From: Candidatus Schekmanbacteria bacterium
Lineage (GTDB): Bacteria > CSSED10-310 > JACPHN01
DNA length: 64,000 nt
NCBI GenBank assembly: GCA_016188575.1
Contig: JACPHN010000269.1
Location: forward strand, 1 to 64,000
Direction of reading: 5' to 3'
The notes below the pieces were generated by a model that was given only the letters and a program-made list of their open reading frames with translations, was not told the origin of the DNA and searched no databases. Each line of letters starts with the position of its first letter. Positions within the stretch are counted from its first letter, which is position 1. Position numbers and translations under genes: made by a program. Of this stretch, positions 55,412-60,923 are shown one piece after another.

Positions 55412-56281
55412 ATGAAACAGAAGCTGCTCACCACGTGTCTGGCGATACTGGCCATCGGAACCGCCGCACATGCCGGCACCACCGTGATTCAGAACAAGGG
55501 ATCGGACACGCTGGTCAACGTCGCGCAATCATGGGCTGAGGCGTACCGCGCCAAGAACGGCAGCGTCGTGGTGGCGATTAGTGGCGGCGGCTCCGGAACG
55601 GGGCTGGCGGCGCTGATCAACGGTACGGTCGACATCGCCAATTCAAGTCGAACCATTTCGCGCAAGGAAGTGGAGGAGGCGACTCGCAAGGGGATCAAAC
55701 CCAAAGAGCACATCGTGGGCTTCGATGCACTGGCCGTCTTTGTGCACAAGAACAACCCACTGGAGAAAGTGGCATTGACGGACCTGGCTGAAGTATACGG
55801 CGAGGACGGCGCGATAGAAAGCTGGAAGCAACTTGGCGTAGACGTCCCCGGTTGCAAGAACCAGACCATGGTGCTGGTGAGCCGGCAGAACAATTCGGGG
55901 ACGTACGCATACTTTCGTGAGGCCGTGCTGGGAGAGAGGCGCGACTACAAGCTCGGTACGCACGACATGCATGGATCGAAGGACGTGGTGGACCTCGTGG
56001 AGAAAACCCCTTGCGCGGTAGGCTACAGTGGCTTGGCGTATGCGACGGACCGCGTCAAGATGCTGTGTATTGCCAAAAAAGGCGAAGAGTCCTGCGTGCG
56101 GCCCGGGGTGGAAACGGCGCTCGACGGCTCCTATCCCATCGCGCGACCGCTTTTCATGTATACAAATGGCGAGCCTGTTGGAGCAACCAAGGCGTATCTC
56201 GACTGGATCCTGAGTGACGAGGGTCAGTGCATTCTGTCGAGAAGGGGCTACGCCCCGATCCGCCACGTCACCTGCAAGTAG
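55412..56281 (+). CDS. pstS: Phosphate-binding periplasmic protein
   Basis: The 289-residue PstS-family protein has a signal peptide (ending AAHAG). The phosphate-site motifs are KGSDTLVNVAQSWAEAY, ISGGGSGTGLAALINGTVDIANSSRTI and SRQNNSGTYAYF. It captures phosphate for the PstCAB importer and opens the pst operon. A clear TAGGAG site precedes the ATG. In the gap 55290-55411 one CTGTCAC half-site lies near 55389-55395, but a full Pho box is not present. Confidence 0.95.
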   Translation: MKQKLLTTCLAILAIGTAAHAGTTVIQNKGSDTLVNVAQSWAEAYRAKNGSVVVAISGGGSGTGLAALINGTVDIANSSRTISRKEVEEATRKGIKPKEHIVGFDALAVFVHKNNPLEKVALTDLAEVYGEDGAIESWKQLGVDVPGCKNQTMVLVSRQNNSGTYAYFREAVLGERRDYKLGTHDMHGSKDVVDLVEKTPCAVGYSGLAYATDRVKMLCIAKKGEESCVRPGVETALDGSYPIARPLFMYTNGEPVGATKAYLDWILSDEGQCILSRRGYAPIRHVTCK

Positions 56282-56335: not shown

Positions 56336-57433
56336 ATGCCACTGTACGAAGAAAGATTGCAAAGGGACAGCGCGCGCTTGCGGGAGTCCGCGGCCCGTCT
56401 GGCGGAGGTCGTCGAAGCGAATCTCGCCAGCGCGATGCACGCCTTGCTCAAGGGTGACGACGCCCTCGCCAACGTTACGGCGCTTCGCGACAAGCGGGCA
56501 AACCGCATGCTGCGCGAGATTACCCAGGACTGCCACGCGTTCATCGCAAGACATTTGCCCTCAGGTGGGCACTTGCGCCTGGTTTCGTCCATTCTCCGGC
56601 TGGCCACGGAGCTCGAACGCATCGGCGACTATAGCGTAACGATCTCCCGCGAAGCTGTGCACCTGAGCCATCCTCCGCAGGGTATTATCCGCCGCGAGCT
56701 GGAGGCGATGGCTGCGGACGCGCTGCAAATGCTGCGGCAGGCGATGCAGTCCTTCAATCAGGGAAACGCAGAGCTGGCGCGCGGCACCAAAGCAATGGCC
56801 GATCAGGTGGGGCGGCGCCTCGCTGTTGCGGTCGCGGATCTCGTGAGCCAGGCGGATACGGGGAAGGAGACCGTCAAGGACCTTCTCGACTTGTTCGTCA
56901 TTTTTCAAATGCTCGAGCGGGTCAGCGACCGCGCCAAGAACCTTTGTGAGGAGACGCTGTTCGCTACCGTGGGCGAGACGAAGCCGCTGAAGATTTATCA
57001 GGTGCTCTTTGTTGATACGGAAAACAGACTTGCGAGTCAGATGGCGGAATTCATCGGGATGAAGACGTATGGCGACACCGCAAGATTTTCGAGTGGTGGA
57101 AGCCATCCCGCCGCGGCGATCGATCCCCGCCTCGCGCAGTTCATGCAGCGCCACGGCCATGATCTCGGCGATGCGGCGCCCAAGCGCATCGAGCTGAACG
57201 ACGACATCGAAGAGGTTACCGACGTCATCATCAGCCTGGAAGGGCCCGTCCGACAGCATGTCTCCTCCATCCCCTTTCACGCGGCGTTTCTGGCGTGGGA
57301 TCTCGAACCGCTGCCGGAGCTGCCCGGCGAAGCGGACAAGTGGCGGCCGTACGAGCATCTGTACCGCTGCATTTCGGTGCGGATACGGGATCTCATGGAT
57401 CTCCTGCGCGGCGAAGGAGACGGCTCCCCATGA
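56336..57433 (+). CDS. phoU: PhoU fused to an inactive LMW-phosphatase-like domain
   Basis: The protein has 365 residues against about 220-240 for ordinary PhoU. Residues 1-215 carry both PhoU three-helix halves with metal motifs ERIGD (94-98) and ERVSD (194-198). Residues about 218-330 resemble a low-molecular-weight protein tyrosine phosphatase/ArsC-type domain (YQVLFVDTENRLASQMAEFIG). The catalytic P-loop cysteine is Asp 227 and the arginine six residues later is Ala 233, so it cannot work as a phosphatase. The domain might sense phosphate or bind a phosphoprotein. It overlaps the pstC start by four bases, inside the pst operon. PhoU restrains Pst and the PhoR-type kinase. Confidence 0.87.
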   Translation: MPLYEERLQRDSARLRESAARLAEVVEANLASAMHALLKGDDALANVTALRDKRANRMLREITQDCHAFIARHLPSGGHLRLVSSILRLATELERIGDYSVTISREAVHLSHPPQGIIRRELEAMAADALQMLRQAMQSFNQGNAELARGTKAMADQVGRRLAVAVADLVSQADTGKETVKDLLDLFVIFQMLERVSDRAKNLCEETLFATVGETKPLKIYQVLFVDTENRLASQMAEFIGMKTYGDTARFSSGGSHPAAAIDPRLAQFMQRHGHDLGDAAPKRIELNDDIEEVTDVIISLEGPVRQHVSSIPFHAAFLAWDLEPLPELPGEADKWRPYEHLYRCISVRIRDLMDLLRGEGDGSP

Positions 57434-58362
57434 GTCGCCGCCACGCTCCCCCGCGGGCGGAGCGCAAGCCGGACCGCCGTGATTTGGGCTGGTACGTCGA
57501 CAAGGCCGTTGAGGTCGCCGTGTTCGTCGGCGGCGTCTCCGCCATCGTCTTCGTCGTCGGGATATTTGTGTTCATTACGCGGGAGGGGCTTGGATTCGTT
57601 ACGGGACCGTTCGACTTTCGGCAGTTCTTCCTTTCTCCGCGCTGGCGCCCAACTTCGGAATGGAATCCGACCTACGGCATTCTCGCGCTCTTCGCGGGGA
57701 CAGCAAGCGTGACAGGGCTCGCCATGCTGGTCGCCGTGCCATTCTCGATCTGCGCCGCCGTGTTCATTGGCGAGCTCACCGCAGGAAGAACGCGCGAAGT
57801 TCTCAAAGTCCTGGTCGAGTTCCTCGCGGCCATTCCCTCCGTCGTTTGGGGCTTCATTGGTCTGAGCATCATCAACCCTCTGATCATCAACGTTTTCGAC
57901 GTCGCAGTCGGATTGAACGTTCTCAACTCCGGGGTGATTCTGGGGCTCATGGCTGCGCCGATCATGACCTCGATCGCGGAGGACGCTTTTCGCGCCGTTC
58001 CGGAGACGTATCGCGAGGCCGCGGAGGCAATGGGCGCAACGCGCTGGCAGGTTACCTACAAGGTCGTGATTCCTGCCGCGAAAAACGGTCTTCTTGCCGC
58101 CGTCTTGCTCGGCATCGGCCGCGCGTTCGGCGAAACAATGGCGGTGCTCATGGCCAGTGGGCATTCGATCAACTTGCCAACATCGGTATTCGATTCGGTT
58201 CGCGCGCTGACCGCGACGATCGCGGCCGAGCTCGGCGAAACCGCAGTCGGCTCCGATCACTACCGCGCCCTGTTTACCATTGGCATCGTGCTCTTCCTGA
58301 TCACCTTTGCGATCAATCTCACTGCCGACCTCGTGATTCGCGGCACGCGCAGGAAGGAGTAG
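57430..58362 (+). CDS. pstC: Phosphate ABC transporter permease PstC
   Basis: The 310-residue inner-membrane permease has six predicted helices. The conserved PstC segments are FLAAIPSVVWGFIGL, the EAA-like loop TYREAAEAMGATRWQVTYKV and GRAFGETMAVLMASG. The ATG at 57430 overlaps the phoU stop, which sets the start; the longer frame begins inside phoU. It pairs with PstA to form the phosphate channel. Confidence 0.95.
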   Translation: MSRRHAPPRAERKPDRRDLGWYVDKAVEVAVFVGGVSAIVFVVGIFVFITREGLGFVTGPFDFRQFFLSPRWRPTSEWNPTYGILALFAGTASVTGLAMLVAVPFSICAAVFIGELTAGRTREVLKVLVEFLAAIPSVVWGFIGLSIINPLIINVFDVAVGLNVLNSGVILGLMAAPIMTSIAEDAFRAVPETYREAAEAMGATRWQVTYKVVIPAAKNGLLAAVLLGIGRAFGETMAVLMASGHSINLPTSVFDSVRALTATIAAELGETAVGSDHYRALFTIGIVLFLITFAINLTADLVIRGTRRKE

Positions 58363-58370
58363 CCCGATCC

Positions 58371-59240
58371 ATGTTTTCGCCAACCGCGCTCAATCTGCGC
58401 AACCGGCGCCGCGAACGGTGGTTCAGATCCTTGTTCTTGCTGACAACCGTCATTCTGGTTTTTCCGGTAGTCGCCATCCTCGGCACCTTGATTGCCAAAG
58501 GTGGGCCGATTCTCTCGCTTGAATTCTTGTTTACTGAACCCCGCGAAGGCATGACCGCGGGCGGCATTTTCCCGGCGCTGCTCGGCACCGTGTTGCTCGT
58601 CACGGTCTCGCTACTGGCCGCGGTTCCGCTTGGCGTGGCCGCGGCGATTTACCTGAGCGAGTACGCTGCGGAAAGCCGGTTCACCCGGGTCATAAACTTG
58701 GCGATCGTTAACCTCGCAGGGGTACCGTCCATCATCCACGCGCTTTTCGGTCTGGGAGCCTTCGTGCTCTTTCTTGATCTCGGCACGAGCATTCTAGCCG
58801 CCGGCCTCACGCTGGCGATCATGAACCTACCCATACTGATCGTAGCCACGGTCGAGTCCCTTCAGGCGGTGCCAAAGGCGTTTCGCGAGGCGTGTTGGAC
58901 CATGGGCGCGACGCGTTGGCAGACCATCCGCATGGTGGTGTTGCCCAATTCGCTCACCGGGATTCTCACGGGCATCATCCTGGCGGTTTCGCGGGCGGCG
59001 GGAGAGACCGCCCCGATCATGTTTACGGGCGCGGCGTTCTTCATACCGGTCCTGCCGGAAAGCGTATTCGATCAGACCATGGCGCTGTCCCTGCACCTAT
59101 TCGTGGTTACTACCCAGGTTCCTGGTGTGCCGGAAGCTCTCCCCTACGGTGTGGCGCTCACCTTGGTCGGGGTCGTCCTCGCCTTCAATGCCCTGGCAAT
59201 TGGATTTCGGACCCACCTCAGGAGGCGAAAGAAGTGGTGA
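58371..59240 (+). CDS. pstA: Phosphate ABC transporter permease PstA
   Basis: The 289-residue permease has six helices. The PstA signatures are VPSIIHALFGLGAFVLFLDL, the EAA loop AFREACWTMGATRWQTIRMV and SRAAGETAPIMFTGAAFF. The ATG at 58371 lies eight bases past the pstC stop; a much longer frame upstream is antisense-style shadow and is rejected. Its stop overlaps the GTG start of the first pstB gene. Confidence 0.95.
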   Translation: MFSPTALNLRNRRRERWFRSLFLLTTVILVFPVVAILGTLIAKGGPILSLEFLFTEPREGMTAGGIFPALLGTVLLVTVSLLAAVPLGVAAAIYLSEYAAESRFTRVINLAIVNLAGVPSIIHALFGLGAFVLFLDLGTSILAAGLTLAIMNLPILIVATVESLQAVPKAFREACWTMGATRWQTIRMVVLPNSLTGILTGIILAVSRAAGETAPIMFTGAAFFIPVLPESVFDQTMALSLHLFVVTTQVPGVPEALPYGVALTLVGVVLAFNALAIGFRTHLRRRKKW

Positions 59241-60061
59241 CGCCGGGGAGCGACCAGGGGAACACAACGCCGGCGCCCGCCATCGCGGAGACAGGCCGCC
59301 CGGCCACCCGTATCGTGCTCGAGGTGAAAGACCTCGGCGTCTCCTATGGGGAGCATGTCGCACTGTCGGGCGTCAACCTCACGGTCAGGGAGAACGAGAT
59401 ATTCGGAATTATTGGACCCGCGAACAGCGGCAAGACGTCCTTTCTGAAATCGCTCAACCGCATGAACATGTTCAATCGCTCCATGCGTGTGACCGGTGAG
59501 GTTTTGTTTGCCGGCCGCGACGTGCGCCGGTGGCGCAATGTCTACGCGCTGCGCCGGCGCATCGGTGTCGTCTTTCCCTTGCCTGTTGGCCTGCCGCTCT
59601 CCATCTACGACAACGTGGCGCTCGCTCCAAAACTGGCCGGGGTGCGCAAGCGGCAGGAGCTCGACGCCATCGTGGAACGTTGCTTGCGGCGGGCTGCGCT
59701 GTGGGACGAGGTCAAAGACCGTTTGCATTCCCTCGGTAGTCTCCTTTCCGGGGGACAGCAGCAGCGACTCACCATCGCCAGATCGCTCTCGCAAGATCCC
59801 GACCTCCTCCTGCTGGATGAATTCTCGATCGCCGTCGATCCGGTCACGACGATGCGCATCGAGGATGTGCTCAAGGAGCTGCGCAACGAGATGACGATCA
59901 TCCTCGTCACCAATCTCGTTCAGCAAGCCCGGCGGCTGGCGGAGCGGACCGCGTTTTTCCTGTCCGGACGGTGCATCGAGGTCGGCGACACGGAAGCGCT
60001 CTTCGCTGGAGACGTCCAGGATCAGCGGACGCATGATTACATCACCGGGCGCTTTGGATAG
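59237..60061 (+). CDS. pstB: PstB-type ATPase 1 (Q-, D- and H-loop degenerate)
   Basis: The 274-residue PstB homologue has intact Walker A GPANSGKT (60-67), signature LSGGQQQRL (170-178) and Walker B LLLDE (191-195). The Q-loop glutamine, normally in VFQ, is P114 (VVFPLPVGLPLSIYDNV). The D-loop reads FSIAVDP instead of PTSALDP, and the switch histidine is N226 (VTNLVQQA). It can bind ATP and lend a signature motif but should not hydrolyse well alone. The GTG at 59237 overlaps the pstA stop and has AGGAGG 11 bases upstream. A second, complementary PstB follows after 61 bases, suggesting a heterodimer. Confidence 0.92.
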   Translation: MTPGSDQGNTTPAPAIAETGRPATRIVLEVKDLGVSYGEHVALSGVNLTVRENEIFGIIGPANSGKTSFLKSLNRMNMFNRSMRVTGEVLFAGRDVRRWRNVYALRRRIGVVFPLPVGLPLSIYDNVALAPKLAGVRKRQELDAIVERCLRRAALWDEVKDRLHSLGSLLSGGQQQRLTIARSLSQDPDLLLLDEFSIAVDPVTTMRIEDVLKELRNEMTIILVTNLVQQARRLAERTAFFLSGRCIEVGDTEALFAGDVQDQRTHDYITGRFG

Positions 60062-60122
60062 GCTCGCCCGGCCGCAGGAAGGCCGTGGGCCGGACCGATT
60101 GACAAACATGAGGCGCGAAGCG

Positions 60123-60923
60123 ATGACACCCCCAAGCGAAGCAACCGAGCAAACGCCGCCGGCGGCAGCGATCCGTACCCGCAAGCTAAACTTTTGGTAC
60201 GGCAGTTTTCAGGCGCTCTTCGAGGTTGACCTCGAGATCACCGCCGGCATCATTACCTCGCTTATCGGCCCGTCAGGGTGCGGAAAGTCTACTCTGCTCC
60301 GCAGTGTCAACCGGATCAACGAGCGCAGCGGCGATGTGCGCACGACGGGAACCATTGAGGTCCTCGGTCACGACATTCATGGCGAGCGAGTCGAGCTCGC
60401 CAGACTCCGACAGAAGGTAGGAATGGTGTTCCAGCGGCCCAATCCGTTGCCGATCTCCATTCGCGACAATGTGATGTTCGGGTATCGCCTGCAGAACCCG
60501 GCAAACAGCCGTAACAAGAGCGAGCAGGAAGAAATCCTGGAAGGCTCATTGCGCAAAGTGCTGCTGTGGGACGGTGTCAAGGACTGCCTCGGGCGCAAAG
60601 CCACCAGTCTGTCGTTGGAAGAGCAGCAGAAGTTGTGCATTGCCCGCCTACTGCCGGTCAAACCGGCTATACTTTTGATGGACGAGCCTTGCTCGGCGCT
60701 TGATCCGCAAGGCACGGAAGCTGTCGAGGAGCTGATTTGGGAGCTGCGCGGGGATTTCAACATTCTCCTGGTCACGCACAACATGGCGCAAGCGCGCAGG
60801 GCCAGTGAGGAGTGTGTGTTCATGCTCATGGGGAGAGTGATCGAGCATGCGCCGACTGTCGAGATGTTCGTCACGCCCAGGAACCCGCAGACCTCCGACT
60901 ACATTGAGGGCCGGTACGGGTAG
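60123..60923 (+). CDS. pstB: PstB-type ATPase 2 (signature-motif degenerate)
   Basis: The 266-residue PstB homologue has consensus Walker A GPSGCGKST (49-57), Q-loop MVFQRPNP with Q104, Walker B LLMDEP (184-189), D-loop SALDP and switch histidine H219 (VTHNMAQA). The ABC signature is lost: LSGGQ reads LSLEE (163-167). Its own signature cannot complete the partner's site, but its hydrolytic residues can pair with the intact LSGGQ of PstB1. The two would form one working and one dead site in an asymmetric dimer. ATG 60123 is used; ATG 60108 in the same frame is an alternative. It ends the pst operon. Confidence 0.92.
   Translation: MTPPSEATEQTPPAAAIRTRKLNFWYGSFQALFEVDLEITAGIITSLIGPSGCGKSTLLRSVNRINERSGDVRTTGTIEVLGHDIHGERVELARLRQKVGMVFQRPNPLPISIRDNVMFGYRLQNPANSRNKSEQEEILEGSLRKVLLWDGVKDCLGRKATSLSLEEQQKLCIARLLPVKPAILLMDEPCSALDPQGTEAVEELIWELRGDFNILLVTHNMAQARRASEECVFMLMGRVIEHAPTVEMFVTPRNPQTSDYIEGRYG

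Follow-up and report, generated by a model that had tools for sequence, protein, structure and literature searches.

A PhoU protein fused to an apparently inactive ArsC-fold domain in a conserved variant pst operon

What use might a phosphate regulator have for an enzyme domain that has lost its active site? This question is raised by a pst operon in Candidatus Schekmanbacteria (assembly GCA_016188575.1, contig JACPHN010000269.1, positions 1 to 64,000; this stretch of 64,000 nucleotides is hereafter called the window). Here, an intact open reading frame of 365 residues at 56336-57433 (+) joins PhoU (residues 1-214) to a domain with the fold of low-molecular-weight protein tyrosine phosphatases (LMW-PTPs) and arsenate reductases (ArsC) at residues ~219-358. 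An initial annotation, made from the window alone, had proposed a PhoU fused to a catalytically dead LMW-PTP-like domain, and this was borne out by the sequence, its homologues and the predicted fold. We favour, with a probability of roughly 0.5, a PhoU carrying a permanently inactive pseudo-ArsC (psi-ArsC) domain that acts as a non-catalytic contact module in a conserved variant Pst system. Since the same fused gene occurs in the same Pst operon of many unrelated bacteria, the dead domain has probably been retained for a non-enzymatic, regulatory job that is apparently undescribed. The parts of the fusion are:

56336..56977, + strand: PhoU portion (residues 1-214), a pair of PhoU three-helix bundles (TIGR02135; fold match to 4q25)
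56990..57409, + strand: apparently dead ArsC/LMW-PTP-fold domain, residues ~219-358 (PF01451 above its gathering score; fold match to 1jf8)
57014..57037, + strand: former P-loop D227-TENRL-A233-S234, which in active enzymes reads C-x5-R-S (alignment of 68 relatives)

The fusion is far from unique to this genome. Scanning the contigs of ~85,000 genomes with window and G002 sequences and two short peptide patterns yielded at least 157 relatives, a lower bound because the scan relied on these two patterns, and 80 were kept, nearly all of them with full-length alignments at 37-48% identity. They are labelled Gammaproteobacteria, Alphaproteobacteria, Magnetococcales, Candidatus Accumulibacter, Acidobacteriota, Planctomycetota, a Gemmatimonadaceae, a Myxococcales and others, according to the depositors' names for metagenome bins, some of which are likely misassigned (e.g. 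'Halobacteria archaeon'). One fusion (L053) is interrupted by an in-frame stop close to residue 338 and is possibly a broken or mis-sequenced copy, and an apparent long match in G342 contains a stop and is an unconfirmed fusion.

The C-terminal domain belongs to the LMW-PTP/ArsC superfamily according to both its Pfam score and its predicted fold. In the window protein alone, PF01451 (LMWPc) matches residues 223-309 with 24.5 bits against a gathering score of 23.2, and phmmer against the PDB retrieved the ArsC 3t38 at 4e-6. PF01451 is also matched by 46 of 68 aligned relatives at E <=0.01, and the profile of these 68 finds Bacillus subtilis ArsC at 1.2e-11 (profile positions 222-353). The full-length fusion, modelled by AlphaFold2 with the 68 relatives, reached a mean predicted local distance difference test (pLDDT) of 93.2 and a predicted template modelling score of 0.85. 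In this model, residues 219-356 superpose on Staphylococcus aureus pI258 ArsC (1jf8) with a Z of 18.9 and a root-mean-square deviation (rmsd) of 1.8 over 129 aligned residues (VIA-align), while tyrosine phosphatases rank lower (Z ~15-16); Foldseek concurs on the fold. Modelling the domain alone gave an agreeing result (pLDDT 83.8, Z 18.8 to 1jf8), and the difference between 84 alone and 93 attached hints that the modelled domain packs on PhoU. Structure prediction had been named as the check on the initial annotation, and the expected type of fold was indeed found; the domain covers residues ~219-358 instead of the proposed 216-335, however, and is of the ArsC type rather than the phosphatase type.

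The active site is predicted to be inactive, all catalytic residues having been lost. The window protein reads VLFV-D227-TENRL-A233-S234-QMAEF at the P-loop, with Asp227 in place of the nucleophilic Cys and Ala233 in place of the Arg, exactly as initially annotated. Thus, neither the C-x5-R motif nor the DP acid loop of LMW-PTP enzymes is present (D227, A233, acid Asp replaced), and the Cys10, Cys82 and Cys89 of pI258-type ArsC are D, E and V; the loss extends beyond the annotated Cys and Arg to the general acid Asp105 and both redox cysteines. We numbered the columns by B. subtilis ArsC and compared the 68 aligned relatives with 36 active-type P-loop homologues. Position 10 is Asp in 66/68 relatives, with one Gly, one Glu and not a single Cys, versus Cys in 36/36 active-type homologues. 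Arg at position 16 is lost in 63/68 and kept in 5/68 (36/36 in the active type), which together with the Cys column settles in the affirmative whether the loss is lineage-wide. Asp105 is mostly gone among the relatives and present in 35/36 active-type homologues; Gln and Glu are the most frequent residues at position 82, where Cys is not a common one, Leu, Ile, Phe and Val are the most frequent at position 89, and Gly12 has mostly been swapped for Asp or Glu in the main clade. The mean net charge of the eight-residue loop is -1.97 in the relatives versus +1.08 in the active-type homologues. The two relatives with another residue than Asp at the P-loop position are L105 (Solemya velesiana gill symbiont) and L083 (Glu, Gly).

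Such a pattern does not resemble decay. D227 is the eighth most conserved column of a domain with a median pairwise identity of 38%, alongside the fold-core residues F225, A237 and W321, which are invariant among the relatives. Because Asp occurs in 66/68 sequences at this identity, D227 is, judging from the alignment, a residue retained for a new purpose, and neutral decay of the domain is disfavoured.

The PhoU part is more conventional. It scores 134.6 bits with TIGR02135, just over the curated cut-off of 130.25, and 2e-24 with PF01895 (Pfam), and residues 5-214 of the AlphaFold2 model match Pseudomonas aeruginosa PhoU 4q25 with Z 30.9 and rmsd 1.4 over 209 residues (VIA-align). At the canonical PhoU motif RQPxAxDLR, the window protein has HLPSAGHLR. 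We infer that the PhoU part keeps its usual job, i.e. holding back Pst transport and signalling to PhoR. A second PhoU is encoded in the same genome (L033, contig G000:C5), adjoining a PstB with intact LSGGQ, while the PstS match there is weak; given this PhoU and PstB, the fusion system probably operates alongside an ordinary Pst/PhoU system.

Surrounding genes place the fusion within a phosphate importer, with PstS and PstC both exceeding the cut-offs of their models:

55412..56281, + strand: PstS, periplasmic phosphate-binding protein (TIGR02136, 228.5 bits, cut-off 206.6)
57430..58362, + strand: PstC permease, its ATG overlapping the fusion stop codon by 4 bases (TIGR02138, 274.6 bits, cut-off 196.45)
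58386..59240, + strand: PstA permease, start approximate (55-73% identity to PstA-like proteins at the same place in related operons)
59273..60061, + strand: PstB1 ATPase, LSGGQ intact, start approximate (TIGR00972, 287.6 bits, under the cut-off of 343.2)
60033..60923, + strand: PstB2 ATPase, true start probably further downstream (TIGR00972, 304.6 bits, under the cut-off of 343.2)

The order PstS, fusion, PstC, PstA, PstB1, PstB2 is characteristic of the main clade. PstS lies directly upstream of the fusion in 74/74 loci with enough sequence, and PstC-PstA-PstB1-PstB2 follow downstream in 50 of 51; in basal lineages, the fusion sits before PstS. The sole exception to the downstream order is L078, where PstB2 was not found past PstB1 despite ~2 kb of remaining contig. 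PhoB-type response regulators are among the flanking genes in many loci; PPK2-like, CHAD-like and NptA-like neighbours were recognised by eye and are unconfirmed by family search.

Neither ATPase qualifies as a canonical PstB, as both fall under the TIGR00972 cut-off and their motif losses are complementary. PstB1 keeps LSGGQ and Walker B, while its Q-loop Gln is Pro in 68/68 and its H-loop His is Asn in 65/65 sequences. In PstB2, Walker A, Walker B, the Q-loop and the H-loop (His in 60/60) are intact, and LSGGQ has become LSLEE (L-x-L-E in 62/62). Two unlike nucleotide-binding domains with complementary losses across 60-68 sequences have the motif pattern of a degenerate-site heterodimer. If PstB1 and PstB2 pair, these losses predict one working site, made of the PstB2 Walker A and the PstB1 LSGGQ, and one degenerate site. 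The asymmetric ATPase pair of the initial annotation was therefore real at the motif level, and the variant Pst control system it suggested is well supported by synteny, with its function remaining a prediction. One locus, L133 (G046:C35, 6048-9927), has an expanded asymmetric Pst cluster in which PstB1 and PstB2 are followed by another PstA-like piece, a third PstB-like ATPase (GPSNSGKTT, LSNGQ, VTNK) and a solo PhoU.

How might the fusion have originated? The fused domains form one clade in the ArsC-part trees (100/97), separate from the LMW-PTPs, and the same proteins form one clade in the PhoU-part tree (100/99) with the same internal split. Both domain trees hence support a single ancient fusion event. 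Two basal lineages preserve intermediate states: the Cys has become Asp in G179 and Ala in six related genomes (G497-G502), and both lineages retain the Arg and the DP loop. Since these lineages lack the Cys and keep the Arg, the nucleophile was probably lost first. The likely history would start with arsC beside phoU, followed by fusion, loss of the Cys and finally loss of the Arg with gain of the acidic loop. Adjacency of the two genes would make sense given that arsenate enters via Pst, and phoU and an LMWPc gene are near each other in G013. A search for PhoU fusions with an active C-x5-R, also suggested initially, turned up one in G136 (VLFICRHNAARSQMAEA; L035/L045, G136:C5). Because phoU and arsC are two separate genes that overlap in its sister species (G396-G398), the G136 fusion is, by this genomic comparison, an independent and recent event that illustrates how such fusions arise. 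Descent of the main family from an active fusion like that of G136 was rejected, the G136 domain grouping with the separate ArsC genes of its relatives.

We propose that the psi-ArsC domain provides PhoU with an extra, non-catalytic contact that would alter the interaction of PhoU with PhoR or with the asymmetric Pst complex. The mouth of the old active site, now acidic, might bind a partner within this complex; a basic patch on PhoR or on one of the two dissimilar PstB subunits seems likeliest. Such a contact could determine from which side PhoU docks or tie docking to the nucleotide state. A more specific version, which we offer only tentatively, is that a pseudo-arsenate-reductase on PhoU reads or locks a half-degenerate importer, with the P-loop Asp as the switch contact, in a widespread and undescribed system. 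Several observations weigh against the contact module. Arg still stands at its old position in 5/68 relatives, and a Cys is found at ArsC position 15 in 27/68 family members. Docking on PstB or PhoR is something we infer, with a putative partner, and our view of the pocket geometry and of the surface charge is sequence-based. Moreover, the asymmetric PstB pair also accompanies solo PhoU in G046 (L133) and G124 (L134), with a related form in G045. On these genomes, the pair predates the fusion or is more widespread than it and does not require the psi-ArsC domain, and the fusion as the cause of PstB asymmetry is rejected.

Other explanations appear less likely. Lacking its nucleophile, the domain could hold phosphate or arsenate, or else a phosphorylated partner, in what was the P-loop and signal this to PhoU, as the initial annotation had envisaged. 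The fold binds oxyanions, the operon imports phosphate, Asn230 and the S-x-G motif are still present, and in tyrosine phosphatases a Cys to Ala change with the Arg kept traps the ligand without turnover, a state matched in G497-G502; in G179, the Cys is Asp and the Arg is kept. Phosphate or arsenate binding is therefore possible for the domain of the basal G497-G502 lineage, judged by its residues. In the main clade, however, the Arg is lost in 63/68, Gly12 is mostly Asp or Glu, and a loop of about -2 net charge should repel phosphate. For the window protein, whose anion-binding Arg is gone and whose former P-loop is acidic, sensing of phosphate or arsenate is unlikely, that of a phosphorylated partner likewise, and we regard an oxyanion sensor as an unlikely description of the family.

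Were the domain just a tail that stabilises or dimerises PhoU, with active-site residues drifting once unneeded, the invariant F225, A237 and W321 and the higher AlphaFold2 confidence in the full-length protein would be accounted for; drift leaves the near-universal Asp at such low identity and the reversed loop charge unexplained, which makes this improbable. The conserved Asp, often within D-E-D/E-N, could instead mark a new divalent-cation site or a phosphorylated aspartate that turns the domain into a switch. Its conservation despite being unfit for the original chemistry and the many acidic residues of the loop speak for this, while the adjacent acids vary (E in 32/68 at the next position, D in 31/68 at the one after), the window loop has D227 and E229 only, one relative has Gly, and known cation or receiver motifs are not matched, so that we hold such a site to be quite improbable. 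The probability that read-through, mis-assembly or chance resemblance produced the fusion is close to nil: the weak single-sequence Pfam score is all that favours it, chance is excluded because of the full-length homologues and the predicted fold, and the recurrence of this fusion and operon in 80 loci, together with the high-confidence fold, rules out an assembly artefact.

No description of a fusion of PhoU with LMWPc, arsenate reductase, ArsC or tyrosine phosphatase was found in the open-access literature, mention elsewhere being possible. A PhoU regulator census from 2026 was confined to PhoU proteins without additional Pfam domains (PMC13170248), and fused members recognised by Pfam would thus be excluded. 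The family bears on the open question of how PhoU learns the status of the Pst transporter by linking PhoU to a conserved additional module, and an importer with two unlike ATPases allows asking which PstB is touched by PhoU. The fusion occurs in Candidatus Accumulibacter, the phosphorus remover of wastewater plants, in which phosphate-uptake control matters in practice. Further, the family clearly exemplifies how an enzyme fold became a pseudo-enzyme, and intermediates of this change are preserved.

Compared with known systems, the fusion resembles ordinary PhoU (TIGR02135; PDB 4q25, 1t72, 2i0m) in passing the family cut-off, in fold (Z 28-31) and in its location in a pst operon. It differs by the additional 150-residue C-terminal domain and its position between pstS and pstC, whereas ordinary phoU is found at the operon end. 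Thioredoxin-type ArsC of S. aureus pI258 and B. subtilis are the closest counterparts of the domain by fold (Z 18-19), by a full-length profile match (1e-11 to 5e-13 for B. subtilis ArsC) and by the domain tree, which groups it with the ArsC type apart from LMW-PTPs. However, it is without their Cys10, Arg16, Cys82, Cys89 and Asp105 and falls far under the NCBIfam ArsC cut-offs (TIGR02691, 27.1 bits vs 174.3). LMW-PTPs have the superfamily fold in common with it (Z ~15-16), while their catalytic Cys, Arg and DP acid loop are not in the window domain. The active G136 protein likewise consists of PhoU followed by an ArsC-fold domain within a pst operon, but, unlike in the window system, its gene is at the operon end after a single canonical PstB. 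Side-by-side PstB genes are found in Firmicutes, where Enterococcus faecalis has adjacent pstB1 and pstB2 in one pst operon (PMC12096839); the distinguishing trait of the window pair is its complementary motif losses. A consensus ATP site paired with a degenerate one, as predicted here, is known from the heterodimeric TM287/288 and MsRv1273c/72c, yet these are exporters, while the window system is a phosphate importer with separate ATPase subunits.
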